NCBI RefSeq assembly: GCF_007859935.1
Contig: NZ_SJPO01000018.1
Span: forward strand, 1 to 64,000
Origin: Posidoniimonas polymericola
GTDB taxonomy: Bacteria; Planctomycetota; Planctomycetia; Pirellulales; Lacipirellulaceae
Direction: 5' to 3'
DNA: 64,000 nucleotides
Shown: positions 27,162 through 34,347 of the stretch, one piece after another
How the letters are laid out: the number at the start of each line of letters is the position of its first letter
How positions within the stretch are numbered: the first letter of the stretch is position 1
The notes under the pieces: model-generated
Databases searched by the model: none
Told to the model about the DNA's origin: nothing
What the model saw: the letters and a program-made list of their open reading frames with translations, nothing else
Program-made: the position numbers and the translations under genes

Positions 27162-29117
27162 ATGCACCGTCTCCTCGTGTTGTCCTCGCTCACTTTCGGC
27201 CTGCTGGCCGCGCCCCTGCTCGCCCCGCAGGCGGCCCACGCCGCGCCCCGGCTGGTCGCCGACTTCACGCTGCCCGACCACCTCGGCAAGCCGTGGTCCC
27301 TGGCCGACCAGGCCGCCAGCGAGCTGGTGGTGGTCGCCTTCCTGGGGACCGAGTGCCCGCTCGCCAAGCTGTACGGGCCGCGGCTCCAGGCGCTGGCCGA
27401 CGAGTACGGCCCCCGCGGCGTGCGGTTCGTGGCGGTCGACTCCAACTCGCAGGACTCGCTCGCCGAGATCACCGCCTACGTCCGCCGGCACGAAGTCCAG
27501 TACCCGGTGCTCAAGGACCAGGCCAACCGCGTGGCCGACCAGTTTGGCGCGACGCGGACGCCCGAAGTGTTCGTGCTCGACCGCTCGCGGCGGGTCCGCT
27601 ACCAGGGCCGCGTCGACGACCAGTACGTCGTCGGCATCCAGCGCGATGAGCCAACCCGCGAGGACCTCCGCGCGGCGCTCGACGAGCTGCTGGCCGGCAA
27701 AGAAGTCTCGCAGCCAGCGACCAAGGCGCTCGGCTGCCTGATCGGCCGCACCCGCGAGACCAAAGAAGACAGCCAAGTGACCTACACGCGCGACATCGCG
27801 CCGATCTTCCAGCAGCGGTGCGTCGAGTGCCACCAGGAGGGCGAGATCGGCCCCTTCCCGCTGCTGACCTACGAGCAGGCGTCGGGCTGGGGCGACATGA
27901 TCACCGAGGTGATCCGCGAGCAACGCATGCCGCCCTGGCACGCCAACCCCGACTACGGCCACTTCGCCAACGACCGCAGCATGCCCGACGACGAGAAGCA
28001 GCTCGTCTACCAGTGGGTCGAGAACGGCTGCCCCGAAGGCGAGCCGTCCGAAGCGATTGAGCCGACCACCACGGCCGCCGGCTGGCCAACGGCCCGCGAG
28101 CCCGACGCCGTGACCGACATGGCCGACCAGCCGTTCACGATCCCCGCCGAAGGCGGCCCCTCGGGCGTGCCGTACCAGTACTTCACGCGCCCATCGGGTT
28201 ACGAAGAAGACCGCTGGGTCGAGGCCGCCGTTGTGCAGCCCGGCAACCGGCAGGTGGTGCACCACATTATCGTCTACGCCGACCCGCCCGGCGGCGAGGA
28301 CCGCCGCGGCTGGATCTTCCTCACCGCGTACGTGCCCGGCCTGCGGTTCGACCCGATGCCCACCGGCGCGGCCAAGCTGGTGCCGGCGGGGTCCAACTTT
28401 GTGTTCGAGATGCACTACACGCCGATCGGCTCCGAGCAGACCGACATGAGCCGCCTCGGCGTGCTGTTCGCCGAGCCCCAGCAGGTCAGCAGCGAGGTCG
28501 TGACCTGCGAGATCGGCAACATGCGGTTCGAGATCCCGCCCGGTGAGCCAGAGCATGTCGTGACCGCCAGCAGCCGGCCGCTCGACCGGGCCACGACGCT
28601 CTTGTCGCTCTCGCCGCACATGCACCTGCGGGGCAAGGCGTTCCGCTACGAGCTCGCCACGCCGGGCGGCGCCCGCGAGGTGCTGCTCGACGTGCCCGCC
28701 TACGACTTCAACTGGCAGACCCGCTACGTGCTCACGGAGCCGCGCGAGCTGCCGGCGGGGTCGGTGATCCACTGCCGCGCGGCGTTCGACAACTCGAAGC
28801 AGAACCTGGCCAACCCCGACCCGTCGGCCACGGTCCGCTGGGGCGACCAGTCGTGGGACGAGATGATGCTCGGCTACTTCGACGTGGTGCTGCCGCGCGA
28901 CGATGCTCGCCGCGCCGGCTCCAAGCCGGTGCACACCGGCCAGGACCTGGTCGGCATGTTCGACCTAGCCGACGCCGACCACAACGGCGGCCTGAGCGTC
29001 GAGGAGGCGACCGCCAACGAACGCCTCACCAAGCACTTCGCTTTGATCGACACCAGCGGCGACAAGCTGCTGCAGTTGGGGGAGATCCTGACGGCGGTGG
29101 CTCGGTATTTGAAGTAG
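27162..29117 (+). CDS. Secreted redoxin / cytochrome c / copper monooxygenase-like / EF-hand fusion
   Basis: The ATG at 27162 gives a signal peptide (MHRLLVLSSLTFGLLAAPLL..., cleavage near AHAAP, residue 28) and 651 residues. Domains in order: a thioredoxin-like AhpC/TSA domain (~31-160; GTECPLAKLYGP with Cys65), a single-heme cytochrome c motif CVECH at 220-224, a region resembling copper type II ascorbate-dependent monooxygenases with HH at 367-368 and HMH at 486-488 as likely copper ligands, and a C-terminal EF-hand pair (ADADHNGGLSVEE, IDTSGDKLLQLGE). This architecture recurs in planctomycetes. It is probably periplasmic and redox-active; the substrate is unknown. Upstream sequence in the same frame lacks a signal peptide, which supports this start. 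Confidence 0.85.
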   Translation: MHRLLVLSSLTFGLLAAPLLAPQAAHAAPRLVADFTLPDHLGKPWSLADQAASELVVVAFLGTECPLAKLYGPRLQALADEYGPRGVRFVAVDSNSQDSLAEITAYVRRHEVQYPVLKDQANRVADQFGATRTPEVFVLDRSRRVRYQGRVDDQYVVGIQRDEPTREDLRAALDELLAGKEVSQPATKALGCLIGRTRETKEDSQVTYTRDIAPIFQQRCVECHQEGEIGPFPLLTYEQASGWGDMITEVIREQRMPPWHANPDYGHFANDRSMPDDEKQLVYQWVENGCPEGEPSEAIEPTTTAAGWPTAREPDAVTDMADQPFTIPAEGGPSGVPYQYFTRPSGYEEDRWVEAAVVQPGNRQVVHHIIVYADPPGGEDRRGWIFLTAYVPGLRFDPMPTGAAKLVPAGSNFVFEMHYTPIGSEQTDMSRLGVLFAEPQQVSSEVVTCEIGNMRFEIPPGEPEHVVTASSRPLDRATTLLSLSPHMHLRGKAFRYELATPGGAREVLLDVPAYDFNWQTRYVLTEPRELPAGSVIHCRAAFDNSKQNLANPDPSATVRWGDQSWDEMMLGYFDVVLPRDDARRAGSKPVHTGQDLVGMFDLADADHNGGLSVEEATANERLTKHFALIDTSGDKLLQLGEILTAVARYLK

Positions 29118-29203
29118 CGGAGGCTAGATCCGAGCTGCCAGTGAAGCACGCCGACGTCGCGTGGTTAGTCGGTGGAGCCAAGGCGACGTCCGAAGAGGCG
29201 TTT

Positions 29204-30880
29204 CTATCTAATCGGCCGTTGCTGTCGATCATAGGATTTGAGCAGATCGTCTAAGTACTCTACGGGAACCGCCTGCCCGTAGGGTCTCGACGGCGCGGTG
29301 ATTCCGCCAGCATCGGCGGCCTGCATGAATACGTTTTCCACAACTACACCCAGAAGGTTGCCTCCAGCATCAATCAAACTTCCTCCACTCAAGCCACCGC
29401 CACTTTGGAAGCTGACTTGGATGAATCGGAGACGGTCACTGTAATTCACAGGAAGCGCTTCGACGATTCCGCTGTGTACCACCTGCGTAACATTGCGTTG
29501 GGGGATACTGGGAAACCCAATCGCCACTATCTCTTCACCGAGTTCCGGCAACCGAACTTGTGTCGGGATTCTCGCGAGCTTCGAAAGCGCATTGCAGCTT
29601 AATAGGGCGACATCAGGCGTATTCGCGTCTGCATCGAGCGGTGCGAGCACATTGGCAACGAACTCATTGCCATCGTGCTTGAGCCTCAGGTCGTCGTGTA
29701 CTGCACCACATTCTGTAAAGACGTTGTGGCGGGCTGTCGCAAAAGTGCCTTTTCCGATGTGGAAAGCAGTTCCGCAAGAAGGGTCGCCTTCTGGCGAAGT
29801 AAAGAGAAGGTGAAGCACACCTTCCGAGTATTTGCGAATCCAAGTCTGCCACTCAGCCCGGGAATTGTGCCGAGGGCTAGGGCGTGCGGTCGTGAGAGGT
29901 TTGACGTTAATGCTTGGTTGGCCTAGATCGTTGAATTCGCGTGAAAGGCGCCGCACGATAAAGTCATCTTTTCCTCGCACCATGCTTAGAAAGGCTATTC
30001 GCCCTCGTAGTACGCTCGAAAGTTCTGAGCCTCCACCTTCGTGGTACTTTTCTAGAAAATGTGCTTGCGCAGCGTCGTACCCGAATCTTCTCCAGGACGA
30101 TAGGGCTGCCTCTATCCCTCTGACGAATTTGCGGCTTACGTTTGGGAAAGCGTTGACTGTTAGCCCTGTCACTTCTTGCCGGCGCGTCGACGTTCTGAAC
30201 ACCATTTTCGAGTGATTCAGTCGGAAGTCGTTGCTGGTTATAAGTTCCACGAGCCGCTCGCCAGGTTGCGGCTGCTCGACATCGAGTTCTACTACTTCGT
30301 GCGGAAAGTATCGGTCGTTGCTGGAAAAGGTTAGGTCGTCTGCGTAGCGAGAGTAACGCAACCGATGTTGTCTTGACAGTCGTAGTAGGTCGTTGTCGAG
30401 TGACCTGCACGCGAGGTTGGAAAGATAAGGCGACATGACGCCTCCCTGGGGGAGTTTCCCGTCGTCGCAGCAACAGATTTGAGCAAGGACCTCCGAAGCG
30501 TCCTCGCCAAATGAGAAGGGAGGGTTCTTGAAAATCCCTTTCACGCGTCCTATGTGGATGCTGGGAAAGAAATCTTCCAGGTCGAATGATGCTGTTAGGC
30601 GTCTTCCACAGTGAACACGAGCATTAGTCACGATGCTTCTGTTCTTCACGAATCCATGGACGCACACCTTTGGAGTGTACTGGCCCTCCAGCCGTCGCAG
30701 GAGCGTAGACTGCAGCCACTTGAGTCGCTTGGGCGGCGCGAGGATTTTCCTATGGCCACCGGAGGCCTTAGGGATCTGGAATTCTGTGTAACGTCGCCGA
30801 TCGCAGTAGCCGTAGAGTATGGCGCATAGCCGGGCGTCACTGATCCCTAGGTAAGTTGCGACGTCTTGACGAGAATTCAT
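29204..30880 (-). CDS. Retron-type reverse transcriptase fused to a trypsin-like serine protease
   Basis: The 558-residue protein has two halves. Residues 1-~320 are a retron RT: the retron-specific NAxxH motif is NARVH (86-90), catalytic Asp lies in FDLEDFF (D100), QGG is at 145-147, YADD at 179-182 and the region-Y VTG motif at 237-239. Residues ~350-545 are a trypsin-like protease with TARHN (H385), DVALL (D423) and GLSGGSL (S498) forming a complete triad. Retron RTs use an adjacent ncRNA as template and primer to make a DNA-RNA hybrid, and known retrons with effectors act in anti-phage defence; the fused protease would be the effector. A matching ncRNA candidate lies 24 bases upstream. 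GC is about 52%, clearly below the neighbouring genes, suggesting horizontal acquisition. No ribosome-binding site is evident. Confidence 0.93.
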   Translation of the reverse strand: MNSRQDVATYLGISDARLCAILYGYCDRRRYTEFQIPKASGGHRKILAPPKRLKWLQSTLLRRLEGQYTPKVCVHGFVKNRSIVTNARVHCGRRLTASFDLEDFFPSIHIGRVKGIFKNPPFSFGEDASEVLAQICCCDDGKLPQGGVMSPYLSNLACRSLDNDLLRLSRQHRLRYSRYADDLTFSSNDRYFPHEVVELDVEQPQPGERLVELITSNDFRLNHSKMVFRTSTRRQEVTGLTVNAFPNVSRKFVRGIEAALSSWRRFGYDAAQAHFLEKYHEGGGSELSSVLRGRIAFLSMVRGKDDFIVRRLSREFNDLGQPSINVKPLTTARPSPRHNSRAEWQTWIRKYSEGVLHLLFTSPEGDPSCGTAFHIGKGTFATARHNVFTECGAVHDDLRLKHDGNEFVANVLAPLDADANTPDVALLSCNALSKLARIPTQVRLPELGEEIVAIGFPSIPQRNVTQVVHSGIVEALPVNYSDRLRFIQVSFQSGGGLSGGSLIDAGGNLLGVVVENVFMQAADAGGITAPSRPYGQAVPVEYLDDLLKSYDRQQRPIR

Positions 30881-30904
30881 GCAATTCTGGAGGCAAAGAA
30901 AAGT

Positions 30905-31052
30905 GCCCTACACTTGGTCCCCTTCCGCGATAGTGCGCCGATCGGACACACATGTAACGATGCTAATCGTCACGAGGTTGCAGTAGCGTGTGCTAGCAAC
31001 ATTGCTAGCGTTCCATCGCATACAGACGATGAAAACTCGACCAAGTGAGGGC
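30905..31052 (-). ncRNA. Putative retron msr-msd ncRNA
   Basis: Read on the minus strand, a1 (31052-31039, GCCCTCACTTGGTC) is complementary to a2 (30919-30905, GACCAAGTGTAGGGC) over 14 bp with one bulged base. Inside are four stem-loops in order: CATCG/CGATG (31014-31031), the near-perfect palindrome GCTAGCAA/TTGCTAGC (30992-31009), GTGACGAT-TAGC-ATCGTTAC (30954-30973, one G-U pair) and an imperfect CCGAT/ATCGCGG hairpin (30925-30945). A G directly after a1 (TCGAG) is a candidate branching nucleotide. Position just upstream of the RT, the a1/a2 end pairing and the short-hairpin interior match retron ncRNAs; the length of 148 nt is in the usual range. Exact msr/msd boundaries are inferred. Confidence 0.75.
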
Positions 31053-31059
31053 CCCAGTA

Positions 31060-31295
31060 GCCTATCATCTGCACTTCACGCGATCTATGGGGCCAGCCAA
31101 TAGCAATCGGTGCGCGCGGTCTTTGGCGAATCCGGCTCCACCTCGTTAGGCAGGTAGAAGCAGGCACTCGGCCATTTCCAATCGACTGGATTCTGCTAGA
31201 GTGCCCGGCGGATGGGATTTGTGTGCAGGCAGTCGAAACTGGACTCGATGGCTCTGTTGTCGCAAGAGGATGTTGCTGTCGAGCAGGAACCTCAT
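31060..31295 (-). pseudogene. Broken VapC-like PIN-domain toxin gene
   Basis: The ATG at 31295 overlaps the antitoxin stop as ATGA, the usual vapBC arrangement. The product begins MRFLLDSNILLR, the typical first strand and catalytic Asp of a PIN ribonuclease, but the frame then loses homology and stops after 49 codons (stop at 31146-31148). In another frame further on, RPRAPIAIGWPHRS resembles the later PIN segment (TRP...NGIGW). The remnant ends at the border of the retron ncRNA. Frameshift plus truncation is the simplest reading; the second fragment is a weak match. Confidence 0.5.
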
Positions 31296-31537
31296 TCACC
31301 GCGGCCTTCGTAGATCGACTCGCGGCTGTCGTCCATCGTTGTCTTCCGCTGGGGAAAGCTGTCGACCCAGCTCTTGAAGCCGGCCTGCCACTCCTCTTCG
31401 CTTAGCGAGGGGTCTTCCTGCGTATGCCGCTCAAACCCTTCACGCAGGGTCTGCGCGACAAACTGCTGGACATCGGCGCCGCTGGCGGCGAGCCGGTTGA
31501 GCTGGCTTTCGATGTCGGGGGGCAGTTGCATGTCCAT
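31292..31537 (-). CDS. Antitoxin-like small protein (VapB-type partner of the broken PIN gene)
   Basis: The ATG at 31537 is preferred because GAGGAA lies about nine bases before it; three upstream codons could also start. The 81-residue product (MDMQLPPDIESQLNRLAASG) looks like the small helical antitoxins that precede PIN toxins: an N-terminal segment with LPPDIESQLNRLA, then FVAQTLREGFERH, and a charged C-terminal tail (EEEWQAGFKSWVDSF) that could bind the toxin. Its ATGA overlap with a PIN start codon supports the role. Since the toxin gene is broken, it may be an orphan antitoxin, perhaps acting against other VapC copies. Confidence 0.65.
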   Translation of the reverse strand: MDMQLPPDIESQLNRLAASGADVQQFVAQTLREGFERHTQEDPSLSEEEWQAGFKSWVDSFPQRKTTMDDSRESIYEGRGE

Positions 31538-31918
31538 GGCATGGTTCCTCACTACGATCATGCGGCATGGTTGCCTGGAAGTCAATCAAACGATGTCTGG
31601 CCTTGGGAGGCCTCGCCGGGGGCTAACGCCCCGCGGCTGATGGCCTGCAGCGGGGGCTGGGGTTGCTGGGTGGCACGCCCTCAAAGGGCGTGGTGAATCA
31701 CCAGCGGGGCTACCACGCCCTTTCAGCGCGTGCCACCTGATGGCCGGCTCATGTGTGTGGGCACGCTTTCTTTGAGCGGCGGCGTTGCTTGTTGACGGCT
31801 CGGAGAGTGGTGCTACTTCGGTGCTTTTCAGTGGGAATGGGCCACCTAGTCGGCGAAAATTCGAATGTGGACAGAGGTGTCTATTCGCGATCGAACCGAC
31901 AACGACAGGGGGCCGACG
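31538..31918. other. 381-bp intergenic stretch with double-hairpin repeat
   Basis: The stretch marks the edge between the accessory island and the following chromosome. It contains one copy of the ~67-bp double-hairpin element (31669-31737) and a GC-rich palindromic run near 31605-31640. No gene is supported. Confidence 0.45.
31669..31737 (-). repeat. ~67-bp double-hairpin repeat, copy 1
   Basis: The element has two hairpins made of CACGCCC/GGGCGTG-type arms joined by a central GCTGGTGATTCACC block (read on the minus strand). Copies lie at 48801-48868 and 53451-53518 on the plus strand, all between genes. The hairpin arms vary but stay complementary in part, suggesting a selected structure. 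Confidence 0.75.
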
Positions 31919-32791
31919 ATGGCGCGACCACGGGTGCTGGATGAGGGGAAGCAGCGGGAGGTTTGTGCGCTGCTGACGGCGGGGATGACCATGGGCGAGG
32001 CGGCCGCGTATGTCGGCTGCTGCGAGAAGACGATCGGGCGGGAGCAGACCCGGGACGAGGGCTTTGACGAGCGGGTCCGCCGGGCGCGGATGGCGGCGCG
32101 GCTCGGGCCGCTGCAGGCCGTGCGGCAGGCGGCGGCCACGCACTGGCGGGCCGCGGCGTGGTTGGTCGACCGGCAGGACCGCCAGGAAGATCGCGAACGC
32201 CGGGCGCGGCGCGAGCAGGTTAAACGCAAGCAGCAGCTGGCCAAGTCGAAGCCGAAGCAGCCGGCGGAGCGGTGGAATCTCGAGCAGGAGATCCAGCAGA
32301 TTGCTTCCGCGCGACCCGCGGCCGGTGAGCGTTGTTCGATCAACAAGAGTCCTCGGCGTCAGCCGAGGGAGCAGCCCAGCACCGCCGCCCTGCCGCCGAC
32401 CACCAGAACCAAGCGGCCCTCACCGGTCGCCGCAGCGCTCCGCGAGATGGCGGGGCAGCTCGCCGCGTCGGCCAACCGGGAGTCGGCGCAGCGGACAAAA
32501 TCGGCGCCGCAGCGTGTGTCGGAAACCTCGGCAGAGCCTGCAGCAGTAGGGGGAAACACGAACGACGGCGATCCGGCCGGTGAGGGTTTTGTCCCCTCGC
32601 TTCGTATTCTTGGACAAAACGAAGAGGGGGCCGCGATGGAGGCTGGCGAGCTCGCGGGCACTGTACCCTCCGCGGAACCCCCGGCTGCCGCCGGGGGCTG
32701 CTCCTCAAGTTTGGCTATGAGTGATCGGGCGGACAAGCCGTGTCTCCGCTTTACCCCCACCCCGGCCCTCCCCCGGAGGGGGAGCGAGTGA
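31919..32791 (+). CDS. HTH protein of the MARPRVLDEGKQ family, with repeat-derived C-terminal part
   Basis: The ATG at 31919 follows a purine-rich AGGGGG seven bases upstream and gives MARPRVLDEGKQREVCALLT, the conserved start of a multi-copy planctomycete family. Residues ~5-95 contain a helix-turn-helix (GMTMGEAAAYVGCCEKTIGRE) and the conserved RLGPLQAVRQAAATHWRAAA block, resembling phage terminase small-subunit-type DNA binders. Beyond ~residue 110 the frame becomes Arg/Gln-rich, then crosses three copies of the GGACAAAA octamer and a GGAGGGGGAG palindrome. The C-terminal half therefore looks like translated repeat DNA, perhaps after an ancestral frameshift. Total length 290 residues. Role unknown, presumably DNA binding. 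Confidence 0.65.
   Translation: MARPRVLDEGKQREVCALLTAGMTMGEAAAYVGCCEKTIGREQTRDEGFDERVRRARMAARLGPLQAVRQAAATHWRAAAWLVDRQDRQEDRERRARREQVKRKQQLAKSKPKQPAERWNLEQEIQQIASARPAAGERCSINKSPRRQPREQPSTAALPPTTRTKRPSPVAAALREMAGQLAASANRESAQRTKSAPQRVSETSAEPAAVGGNTNDGDPAGEGFVPSLRILGQNEEGAAMEAGELAGTVPSAEPPAAAGGCSSSLAMSDRADKPCLRFTPTPALPRRGSE
32493..32619. repeat. GGACAAAA/TTTTGTCC cluster 3 (three copies)
   Basis: GGACAAAA at 32493-32500, TTTTGTCC at 32587-32594 and GGACAAAA at 32612-32619, all inside the 3' half of the HTH reading frame. The last two face each other with CCCCTCGCTTCG and CGAAGAGGGG beside them. Confidence 0.6.
32770..32786. repeat. CTCCCCC-GGA-GGGGGAG palindrome
   Basis: A 7-bp stem with a three-base loop at the end of the HTH frame. 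Coordinates are approximate within a few bases. Related C-run/G-run palindromes occur at 50767-50790 and 52240-52262, forming a further dispersed family. Confidence 0.5.
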
Positions 32792-32797
32792 AATTGC

Positions 32798-34042
32798 CTA
32801 GCGGAACAGGCTGAATGAGCCGCTGATGCTCCGCTTGGGGGCCTCGATCACGTGCGGGTGGATGTCGAAGGGGATCACCCGGGCGTTGGGGTCCTTCGGC
32901 GGGACGCGGGCGAACTTGGGGTTCAACCCGCTGGCGACCTGGCCGTGCTTCTGCTGGAACATCTGCTTGAACTGGCCCTCGACCTGCGAGACCTCGCTGG
33001 CGACCTGGTCCGGCAGGCGGACGCGCTGCAGCGGGTCGGACGGGGTGTTGTAGGCGGCTCCGAAGGCGCGGATCACCGGCATCATCGCGTCGGTCGGGTA
33101 CAGGCGGCCCTCGTCGTCGATTTTCGCGACCTCGTCGTACGAGCCGACCACGACGTAGCTCTCGTAGCGGTCGTGGAACTCGTAGGCCTCGATGTTCAGG
33201 CGGCGCATCTCCTCGGTCAGCAGGTGGGCGTTCTCGGCGGCCTCGACCAGCGGGTCGACGTCCGACCGCTTCTGGCTCCGCGTGTTGGCGAGCGAGGCGG
33301 TCTGCAGCTGGGCCTTGCCGGCGAACGTGGCGACCTTCACCGTGTAGCGGCCCTTCATATCGAGCAGGCTGTGCTTGACGCCCTTGTTCATGTCCGACAC
33401 GAACTTGTCGACCCCCTTGGGGACGAAGTACTCCTGCGGCAGCAGCGGGTTGCGGGTGATGAACGCGGTGCGCATCGGCCCGTGGGGCTCGGCGTTGCTC
33501 ACCTTCTGGATGATCTGTTCCTGGTGACGGCGGATGTAGGCGAGCGTCTGGAAGGTCGGCTTGTCGTCCTCGATCTTGAGGGCGTCGGGCTCGAACCGCT
33601 TGACGTTGTCGAGCATCCGCTGGGCCTCGGGGTCGTCGATGGCCGGGTAGTCGCCGACCAGCACGGCCCACTCGTGGACGGTGTCGCCGCCGCGGTACTT
33701 CATGTGCTTCTTGTTGCCGTACTTGTCGACCCCGCGGCCGACGTCGGTCGTGTCGAGCTCGAGCTTGAGGTCGTGCACGTAGGAGCTGGCGTTGAGCCGC
33801 TGACGCAGCTCGAGGGCGACCTGGTTGGCCTGCTGCTCGGCGCCGTCGCCGGTGAAGGTGGCGGCCATGATCAGCCACGGGCCGTGCGACTGCCTAAGCC
33901 CGTAGGACGCGCCCGGGTCGGCGGCGACGCGTTCCACCGGCACGAAGCGGCGGAAGATGTTCTGCGCGGCGGCGTCGGTGGGCGCAAGCGACGCCGCGAC
34001 GAGGGCGAGCGTGAGGGGCGGGGTGAGCATGCGGCCGAGCAT
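32798..34042 (-). CDS. Secreted protein of unknown function, conserved in planctomycetes
   Basis: The ATG at 34042 (MLGRMLTPPLTLALVAASLA, signal peptide ending near TDAAAQ) is chosen because CGGAGA lies about eight bases upstream; the open frame extends further but lacks these features. The mature part of about 390 residues has repeated mixed alpha/beta segments such as GPWLIMAATFTGDGAEQQAN, HEWAVLVGDYPAIDDPEAQR, RYTVKVATFAGKAQLQ and SYVVVGSYDEVAKIDD. These look like SPOR-type folds (K/VATF.G....A), so peptidoglycan binding is possible but unproven. It converges with the HTH gene, only six bases apart. Confidence 0.75.
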   Translation of the reverse strand: MLGRMLTPPLTLALVAASLAPTDAAAQNIFRRFVPVERVAADPGASYGLRQSHGPWLIMAATFTGDGAEQQANQVALELRQRLNASSYVHDLKLELDTTDVGRGVDKYGNKKHMKYRGGDTVHEWAVLVGDYPAIDDPEAQRMLDNVKRFEPDALKIEDDKPTFQTLAYIRRHQEQIIQKVSNAEPHGPMRTAFITRNPLLPQEYFVPKGVDKFVSDMNKGVKHSLLDMKGRYTVKVATFAGKAQLQTASLANTRSQKRSDVDPLVEAAENAHLLTEEMRRLNIEAYEFHDRYESYVVVGSYDEVAKIDDEGRLYPTDAMMPVIRAFGAAYNTPSDPLQRVRLPDQVASEVSQVEGQFKQMFQQKHGQVASGLNPKFARVPPKDPNARVIPFDIHPHVIEAPKRSISGSFSLFR

Positions 34043-34347
34043 GGGCGATCTCCGTTGTGCCGGGGCGGGCACTGGGTTGGTTTGGTCGAGGGCGTGTCGG
34101 TTGGTCAGGGGGCGGACGTTAGCGAAATGGGAAGAATCGAGCCAGACCGGCCGCGGGGCGTTTTTCAGCGCCCGAGGGCGGCCCCTGCGGTAAGATGGGG
34201 TAGGTGCGTCCGGCCCGTGCTGTTTAACGCTGCGGCCGCCCAGAATGAAGCGATTCCTGCTGCAAGAACCGGCGGCGTGGGGCGAATGCCCCCCAGAGCC
34301 TTGCCGCGTCACGATACACCCAGCCCTGCAACGACCACGACAAGATC
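34043..34347. other. 305-bp divergent intergenic region
   Basis: It lies between the secreted unknown (minus) and sppA (plus) and should hold both promoters. No repeat or clear promoter motif was recognised. Confidence 0.35.

Follow-up and report, generated by a model that had tools for sequence, protein, structure and literature searches.

A candidate type XI retron in Posidoniimonas polymericola: a probable msr-msd RNA with covarying ends and first hairpin upstream of a reverse transcriptase-protease gene

In this study, we analyzed a stretch of 64,000 nucleotides (nt) from the planctomycete Posidoniimonas polymericola (contig NZ_SJPO01000018.1, positions 1 to 64,000; hereafter the window), in which a gene encoding a reverse transcriptase (RT) fused to a protease lies on the minus strand and is preceded by a structured element at 30905-31052. 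Previously, this element had been proposed as a candidate retron msr-msd from the letters of the DNA alone (hereafter the sequence-only reading). Our analysis supports that proposal: an end helix formed by the arms a1 and a2 was found at every RT-protease locus that we collected, its pairs change in a compensatory way, and the first hairpin (hairpin A) covaries among relatives. It is therefore very probable that the element is the msr-msd non-coding RNA (ncRNA) of a retron of the RT-protease kind, and the locus as a whole is likely best explained as a type XI retron with a protease guarded by its multicopy single-stranded DNA (msDNA). The features are listed in Table 1.

Table 1. Features of the candidate retron in the window (positions are those of the whole stretch; aa, amino acids)
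Feature	Position	Strand	Evidence or remark
Retron msr-msd ncRNA, 148 nt (very probable)	30905..31052	-	Fold z -4.41; comparable a1/a2 element upstream of 19/19 RT-protease loci
a1 arm, GCCCTCACTTGGTC	31039..31052	-	14 pairs with a2; inner 8 pairs compensatory across 16 representatives
a2 arm, GACCAAGTGTAGGGC, one bulged U	30905..30919	-	Pairs with a1
Candidate priming G (G31038), GAGT right inside a1	31038	-	Position only; putative
msr hairpin A, GCG 3' of loop	31011..31034	-	Predicted 9 bp, 6-nt loop; aligns to 13 other loci
Hairpin B, 18-base near-palindrome GCTAGCAATGTTGCTAGC	30992..31009	-	Predicted fold only: 7 bp, 4-nt loop
Hairpin C, probably msd	30954..30973	-	Predicted fold only
Hairpin D, probably msd	30933..30951	-	Predicted fold only
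Purine-rich msd 3' end, GCGGAAGGG	30920..30928	-	Putative start of reverse transcription
RT-protease fusion, 558 aa, intact	29204..30880	-	Open frame; PADLOC RT-Protease_XI 1.2e-133
Retron RT domain, residues 1-320	29921..30880	-	RVT_1 1e-15, residues 36-242
Trypsin/DegS-like protease domain, residues 370-512	29345..29773	-	Trypsin_2 1.7e-13; H385, D423, S498

The anatomy of the element was confirmed. On the minus strand, a1 and a2 form 14 pairs with a single unpaired U in a2, and the minimum-energy fold contains exactly four interior hairpins (A-D), in agreement with the 14-bp pairing with one bulge and the four enclosed stem-loops described by the sequence-only reading. The nearly perfect 18-base palindrome that it had pointed out corresponds to hairpin B, and the distance of 24 nt between the end of the element (30905) and the ATG of the RT gene (30880) was also reproduced. 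Retron cassettes are described as having the msr 5' of the msd and ends (a1/a2) that pair over about 8-30 bases, a range that includes the end helix of the window, and their msr as containing one to three hairpins of about 7-10 bp with loops of about 3-10 nt. The predicted hairpins A and B are both within these sizes, hairpin A being the one checked by covariation. Purine-rich stretches at the equivalent end of the msd were seen by eye in most other loci. With regard to chance, the 181-nt fold had an energy of -75.3 kcal/mol compared with -55.3 +/- 4.5 for shuffled sequences, none of 200 being as low, and the a1/a2 score of 33 (one bulge or mismatch allowed) was matched by one of 500 dinucleotide shuffles of the upstream region; when only uninterrupted helices were considered, the observed score was attained in 25 of 200 shuffles.

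To place the element among its relatives, plasmid records and viral contigs served as the source of RT-protease loci. With profiles made from six members, 23 frames with both domains were retrieved, and the removal of four copies (L142, a plasmid locus with the same protein as L082; L054, identical to L053; L023 and L133, identical to the window) left 19 distinct loci including the window, a number that should be read as at least 19 as 80 loci were kept in one scan. L074, whose RT is cut by a contig end and which is similar to L082, was not counted. All 19 proteins matched RT-Protease_XI, and three pairs among them are close kin (L058/L059, L145/L136 and L053/L153).

An a1/a2 helix was present upstream of the RT in all 19 loci, where it spans 120-159 nt and ends shortly before, or overlaps, the presumed RT start (start codons were chosen by us). 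In 18 loci, no more than 3% of shuffles of the same region, subjected to the same best-helix selection, attained the helix score, the exception being L134 (7 of 100). The median locus score was 33.0 vs 25.0 for GC-rich control segments, which were taken from the window for all loci. For the eight innermost pairs in 16 representatives (the 19 loci minus L059, L136 and L153), 127 of 128 cells were paired with at least four pair types per position, a fraction that is biased upward since helices were the best of each region and in L053, L153 and L154 the inner end was placed manually; re-dealing the partners gave 43% paired cells on average and 65% at most (2000 trials). Thus, the conservation of the a1/a2 pairing that the sequence-only reading had made a test of its proposal was confirmed, and the changes are almost fully compensatory.

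A best hairpin could also be drawn next to a1 in each of the 19 loci, at a spacer of 4-15 nt, and 11 of them, the window included, carry GCG 3' of the loop (counted by hand). When five of the 19 loci were left out, 14 sequences (13 of them distinct), among them the window, could be aligned on a 7-pair stem in which 91% of the cells pair, and this share dropped to 24-58% when the alignment was slid. Both sides have changed at six of the seven pairs, with a covariation score of 0.705 compared with 0.268 after shuffling (reached in none of 500 shuffles, which ignore the relatedness of the sequences), and a count of further pair types gave a weaker result (12 of 500). In the window, all seven pairs are present, two of them as U-G. 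The RNA is too divergent in its middle for hairpins B-D to be aligned between loci, and full-length ncRNAs aligned by MAFFT showed poorly aligned arms and middle. Of the four hairpins, the covariation that the sequence-only reading had asked for was therefore found for hairpin A.

For a covariance model of hairpin A (R1), 13 of the 18 loci other than the window were used, leaving out L190, L143, L058, L059 and L144, whose first hairpin lacks the motif or is unalignable. In the 451 nt upstream of the RT start (30880-31330), the hairpin A of the window ranked first (31011-31047, 10.0 bits, E-value 0.077). Among nine loci outside the training set, R1 gave weak upstream matches in L137 (E-value 0.24) and L141 (E-value 1.5), as well as three other matches at places elsewhere. 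Both L137 and L141 contain cyanobacterial retron RTs without protease, and the hairpins upstream of them (2201-2236 and 2278-2315, respectively) weakly resemble the model. The RT of L137 is followed by genes for a hypothetical protein and an ATP-binding protein, perhaps another effector set.

Besides the upward bias of the paired fraction and the disregard of relatedness in the hairpin A shuffles, several results weigh against a retron RNA at this place and have to be set beside those above. As a control on real DNA, 72 of 1274 350-nt segments of the window scored 33 or more, which we attribute to the GC-rich composition of much of the window, and 0.2% to 53% of such segments matched the scores of the individual 19 loci. 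Over the entire 64 kb, R1 was not significant: two other places scored 10.8 and 10.6 bits, and hairpin A was unlisted at an E-value of up to 10. This model also misses the ncRNAs of the five loci left out of its training and found no match upstream in L139 or L024. No Rfam family was found over the whole window at the gathering score or in 351 bases at an E-value of up to 10, and a scan of 28900-31400 for sigma-70-type sites revealed no sigma-70-like promoter. With regard to the shape of the RNA, the msd of retrons is described as one long hairpin with a stem of about 10-50 bp, and for that of the window a weak outer stem enclosing two short hairpins is predicted; in addition, the predicted msDNA strand shows no unusual degree of structure (z -0.39). 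Retrons are described as having a conserved priming G at the inner a1 end, in the forms TAGC, CAGA, CAGC, GAGC and ACGC, a set from which the GAGT directly following a1 in the window is absent. It is plausible that G31038 serves as the usual priming G in the window. However, when any G between the last three bases of a1 and hairpin A was accepted, a priming G was not evident in five of the 19 loci (L060, L146, L145, L136 and L154), in which either another position holds the priming base or the helix ends were wrongly placed.

Taken alone, the element of the window is suggestive. The statement of the sequence-only reading that such an arrangement is not expected by chance is too strong for a single element in view of the control segments. 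Since the pairing is only moderately unlikely in isolation, it is the conservation among homologues that makes the case convincing. This also bears on the alternative that the element is a chance inverted repeat, or a terminator or attenuator ahead of the RT gene. The frequent high helix scores in GC-rich segments of the window would favor such an origin; against it, an end helix of similar span occurs at the same place in all 19 loci with compensatory changes, and the first hairpin covaries in 14 sequences. We therefore consider a terminator or attenuator extremely improbable, and a chance inverted repeat was rejected on the same grounds, though a single element of this kind is not rare in GC-rich DNA.

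The protein encoded downstream points to the same type of retron. Its best match in PADLOC was RT-Protease_XI (PDLC02960), with residues 2-523 aligned to positions 7-487 of 506, and the next-best kind was RT-TIR_XII (8.1e-114, residues 2-321). The type XI match spans both RT and protease, and Trypsin_2 was found as well, as is required of a type XI protein. The motifs NAxxH (NARVH, residues 86-90), YADD (179-182) and VTG (237-239) can be read in the RT domain; N86, H90, D181, D182, V237 and T238 are invariant in the 19 proteins, and A87 and G239 are kept in at least 90%. NAxxH in region X and VTG at the opening of region Y are reported from 14 of 16 and from 14 validated retron RTs, respectively (PMC6868368). 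The window protein has both motifs. In the protease domain, H385 and D423 are invariant throughout the 19 proteins, 18 of which also have S498, and we take these three residues to be an H-D-S catalytic triad. The single exception for S498 is a copy on a Phaeobacter plasmid (L136, 2441-5086), truncated at an IS3 element: its protease is cut where the IS3 transposase gene overlaps, and the ncRNA helix and the RT remain.

Comparison with solved structures gave a consistent picture. By sequence, the nearest chains were retron Ec67/Eco2 (1.2e-43) and Ec86 (6.5e-25), and DegS for the protease part (4.3e-9). The predicted structure (15 sequences, mean predicted local distance difference test (pLDDT) score 77.4, predicted template modeling score 0.58), in which the RT is mostly near or above 90 pLDDT and the linker and parts of the protease are low, had Eco2 as its top match (1.1e-24) and DegS and Deg2 for the C-terminal part. 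These results bear on the alternative that the RT is a non-retron defence RT of the DRT/UG type, whose ncRNA would be copied in another way, such as rolling or protein-primed synthesis. RTs of that type also use neighboring structured ncRNAs; the presence of NAxxH and VTG, the best profile and fold matches, which are all retrons, and the retron geometry of a1/a2 argue against it, and we regard this alternative as having hardly any likelihood.

The window protein shares 27-33% identity with the other 18 RT-proteases. In a tree of 64 RT domains, it groups with L190 and L143, its nearest RT relatives (support 96/88). The protease label requires four changes on this tree, and a single change was obtained in no bootstrap tree; judged by the starred branches alone, the protease fusion may nevertheless have had a single origin. 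Related genomes contained RTs without protease or proteases without RT. Among 392 genomes sampled from the phylum, the best type XI match was that of the window itself; the next two matches, L024 and L025, lie within the RT part of the profile; L024 is interrupted by the end of its contig, and L025 has no protease. The closest relative of the protease, L002 (51% identity over residues 387-550), is located at the end of a contig and has no RT. At an E-value of up to 1e-100, the PADLOC type XI profile matched none of 385 genomes of the class of genome G482, with no match in the control either. A scan of viral contigs with the window protein alone and a search of E. coli genomes with the DNA of L082 gave no match, and the ncRNA DNA of the window was found by BLAST in its own copy only among 97 genomes. 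Another RT-like frame is present in the same genome as the window (G000:C16:64138-65064, minus strand; a 667-aa frame with one TAA inside one match), where the match was confined to the RT part of the query.

A genome of the same genus (G001, locus L209) has conserved flanks on both sides of the retron, with 83.5% identity to window positions 27216-29089 and 86.4% to 32736-34061. The stretch of about 3.6 kb in between (29090-32735) is replaced by about 3.0 kb (L209 4150-7195) with no DNA match to it, which contains two open reading frames (ORFs) on the plus strand (304 and 198 aa) and one on the minus strand (224 aa). Such conserved flanks around a replaced middle imply that the retron occupies a variable accessory spot between conserved genes. 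Next to it, positions 31146-31585 on the minus strand contain a 97-aa ORF (31292-31585) without Pfam match above the cut-off, followed by a frame that starts MRFLLDSNILLRQ, stops after 49 codons and presumably resembles the start of a PIN/VapC toxin; this is probably a broken toxin-antitoxin pair. Among the relatives, the RT-protease retron of a Haematobacter plasmid (L053, 4633-7368) is followed by genes annotated as an ATP-dependent endonuclease and a UvrD-like helicase, which we take to be a Gabija-like pair.

The absence of the retron from the same spot in the related genome, together with the adjoining cut-short PIN-like (VapC-type) frame and the promoter scan, would be compatible with a decayed or silent retron, whose RNA and ORF look intact and are no longer expressed or active. 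On the other hand, the ORF is full-length, the catalytic residues of both RT and protease are kept, a1/a2 is intact, and the promoter scan covered sites of the sigma-70 type. We consider decay or silence to be quite unlikely.

On this basis, a mechanism for a type XI retron with a guarded protease can be outlined by analogy, for which we see about even chances. A single minus-strand transcript would contain the msr-msd RNA and, 24 nt further on, the RT-protease frame. The a1 and a2 ends would pair, the RT domain would recognize the msr hairpins, and copying of the msd from the purine-rich stretch beside a2 would generate msDNA, a branched RNA-DNA molecule. RT, msDNA and the fused DegS-like protease might then form a self-inhibited complex, as proposed for Eco2, in which an RT-Toprim fusion and its msDNA are described as a self-inhibitory assembly triggered by the phage product DenB (PMC12405507). 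The analogy is based on the kinship of the RTs and on the design of both systems as a fusion encoded by one gene. If a phage product were to cut, modify or displace the msDNA, the protease would be set free and could cleave host or phage proteins and stop the infection, probably via cell death or arrest.

One variant is that the ncRNA is a genuine type XI RNA and that the protease cuts one specific partner, such as a pro-nuclease, rather than acting as a toxin. The trypsin-like proteases fused to Hachiman and AVAST proteins are described as activating a neighboring pro-nuclease, which gives this variant a precedent. In those systems, however, an N-terminal protease is encoded next to the nuclease gene, whereas the protease of the window is C-terminal; PADLOC lists RT-Protease_XI as a single gene. 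Neither a shared partner gene nor a pro-nuclease neighbor was found among the reading frames of the window or the annotated names of the plasmid loci (neighbors on viral contigs lay outside this comparison). We thus prefer direct cleavage of cell or phage proteins and regard a dedicated partner as unlikely. More generally, we tentatively suggest, as a doubtful possibility, that RT-protease retrons are a distinct, self-contained immune machine: one polypeptide in which a DegS-like protease is inhibited by msDNA and freed by phage attack on the msDNA to cut host or phage proteins. Their ncRNAs would often share a GCG-loop first hairpin, and some branches lack the usual priming G, which may mean that synthesis is initiated at a different base or place.

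Type XI is already an established class in PADLOC, whose web server is described as searching msr-msd covariance models for retrons (PMC9252829), and the window locus is a further member of it. In the titles, openings of abstracts and text passages of the literature searched, no study of RT-protease retrons, of either their function or their RNA, was found; passages of two papers name protease domains in passing among RT-fused effectors (PMC12405507) and proteases among retron effector genes (PMC8867640). No priority is claimed for the RNA consensus. What the locus provides, for a retron type with a protease effector, is an RNA that is defined and supported by covariation. As the boundaries of RNA and protein are known, msDNA synthesis, self-inhibition and the protease substrate are directly testable, and the 19 loci offer a working consensus (a1/a2, hairpin A and the purine-rich msd end) for finding others.

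Compared with known systems, the locus shows no departure from type XI (RT-Protease_XI in PADLOC), which likewise consists of an RT with a C-terminal trypsin-like protease in a single gene. Eco2 (Ec67) is the closest solved relative of the RT and resembles the window in its single fusion protein and in the model of self-inhibition; its effector is a Toprim RNase instead of a DegS-like protease. RT-TIR (type XII) retrons, the next-best kind of RT match, are also single genes in PADLOC and have a TIR effector domain in place of the protease; among the loci examined, the C-termini of L149 and L160 look TIR-like, and L140 is annotated as TIR. The protease-nuclease pairs of Hachiman, AVAST, Lamassu and DRT systems likewise fuse a trypsin-like protease to a defence protein, but they combine an N-terminal protease with an adjacent pro-nuclease of the metallo-beta-lactamase fold, neither of which was seen in the window.
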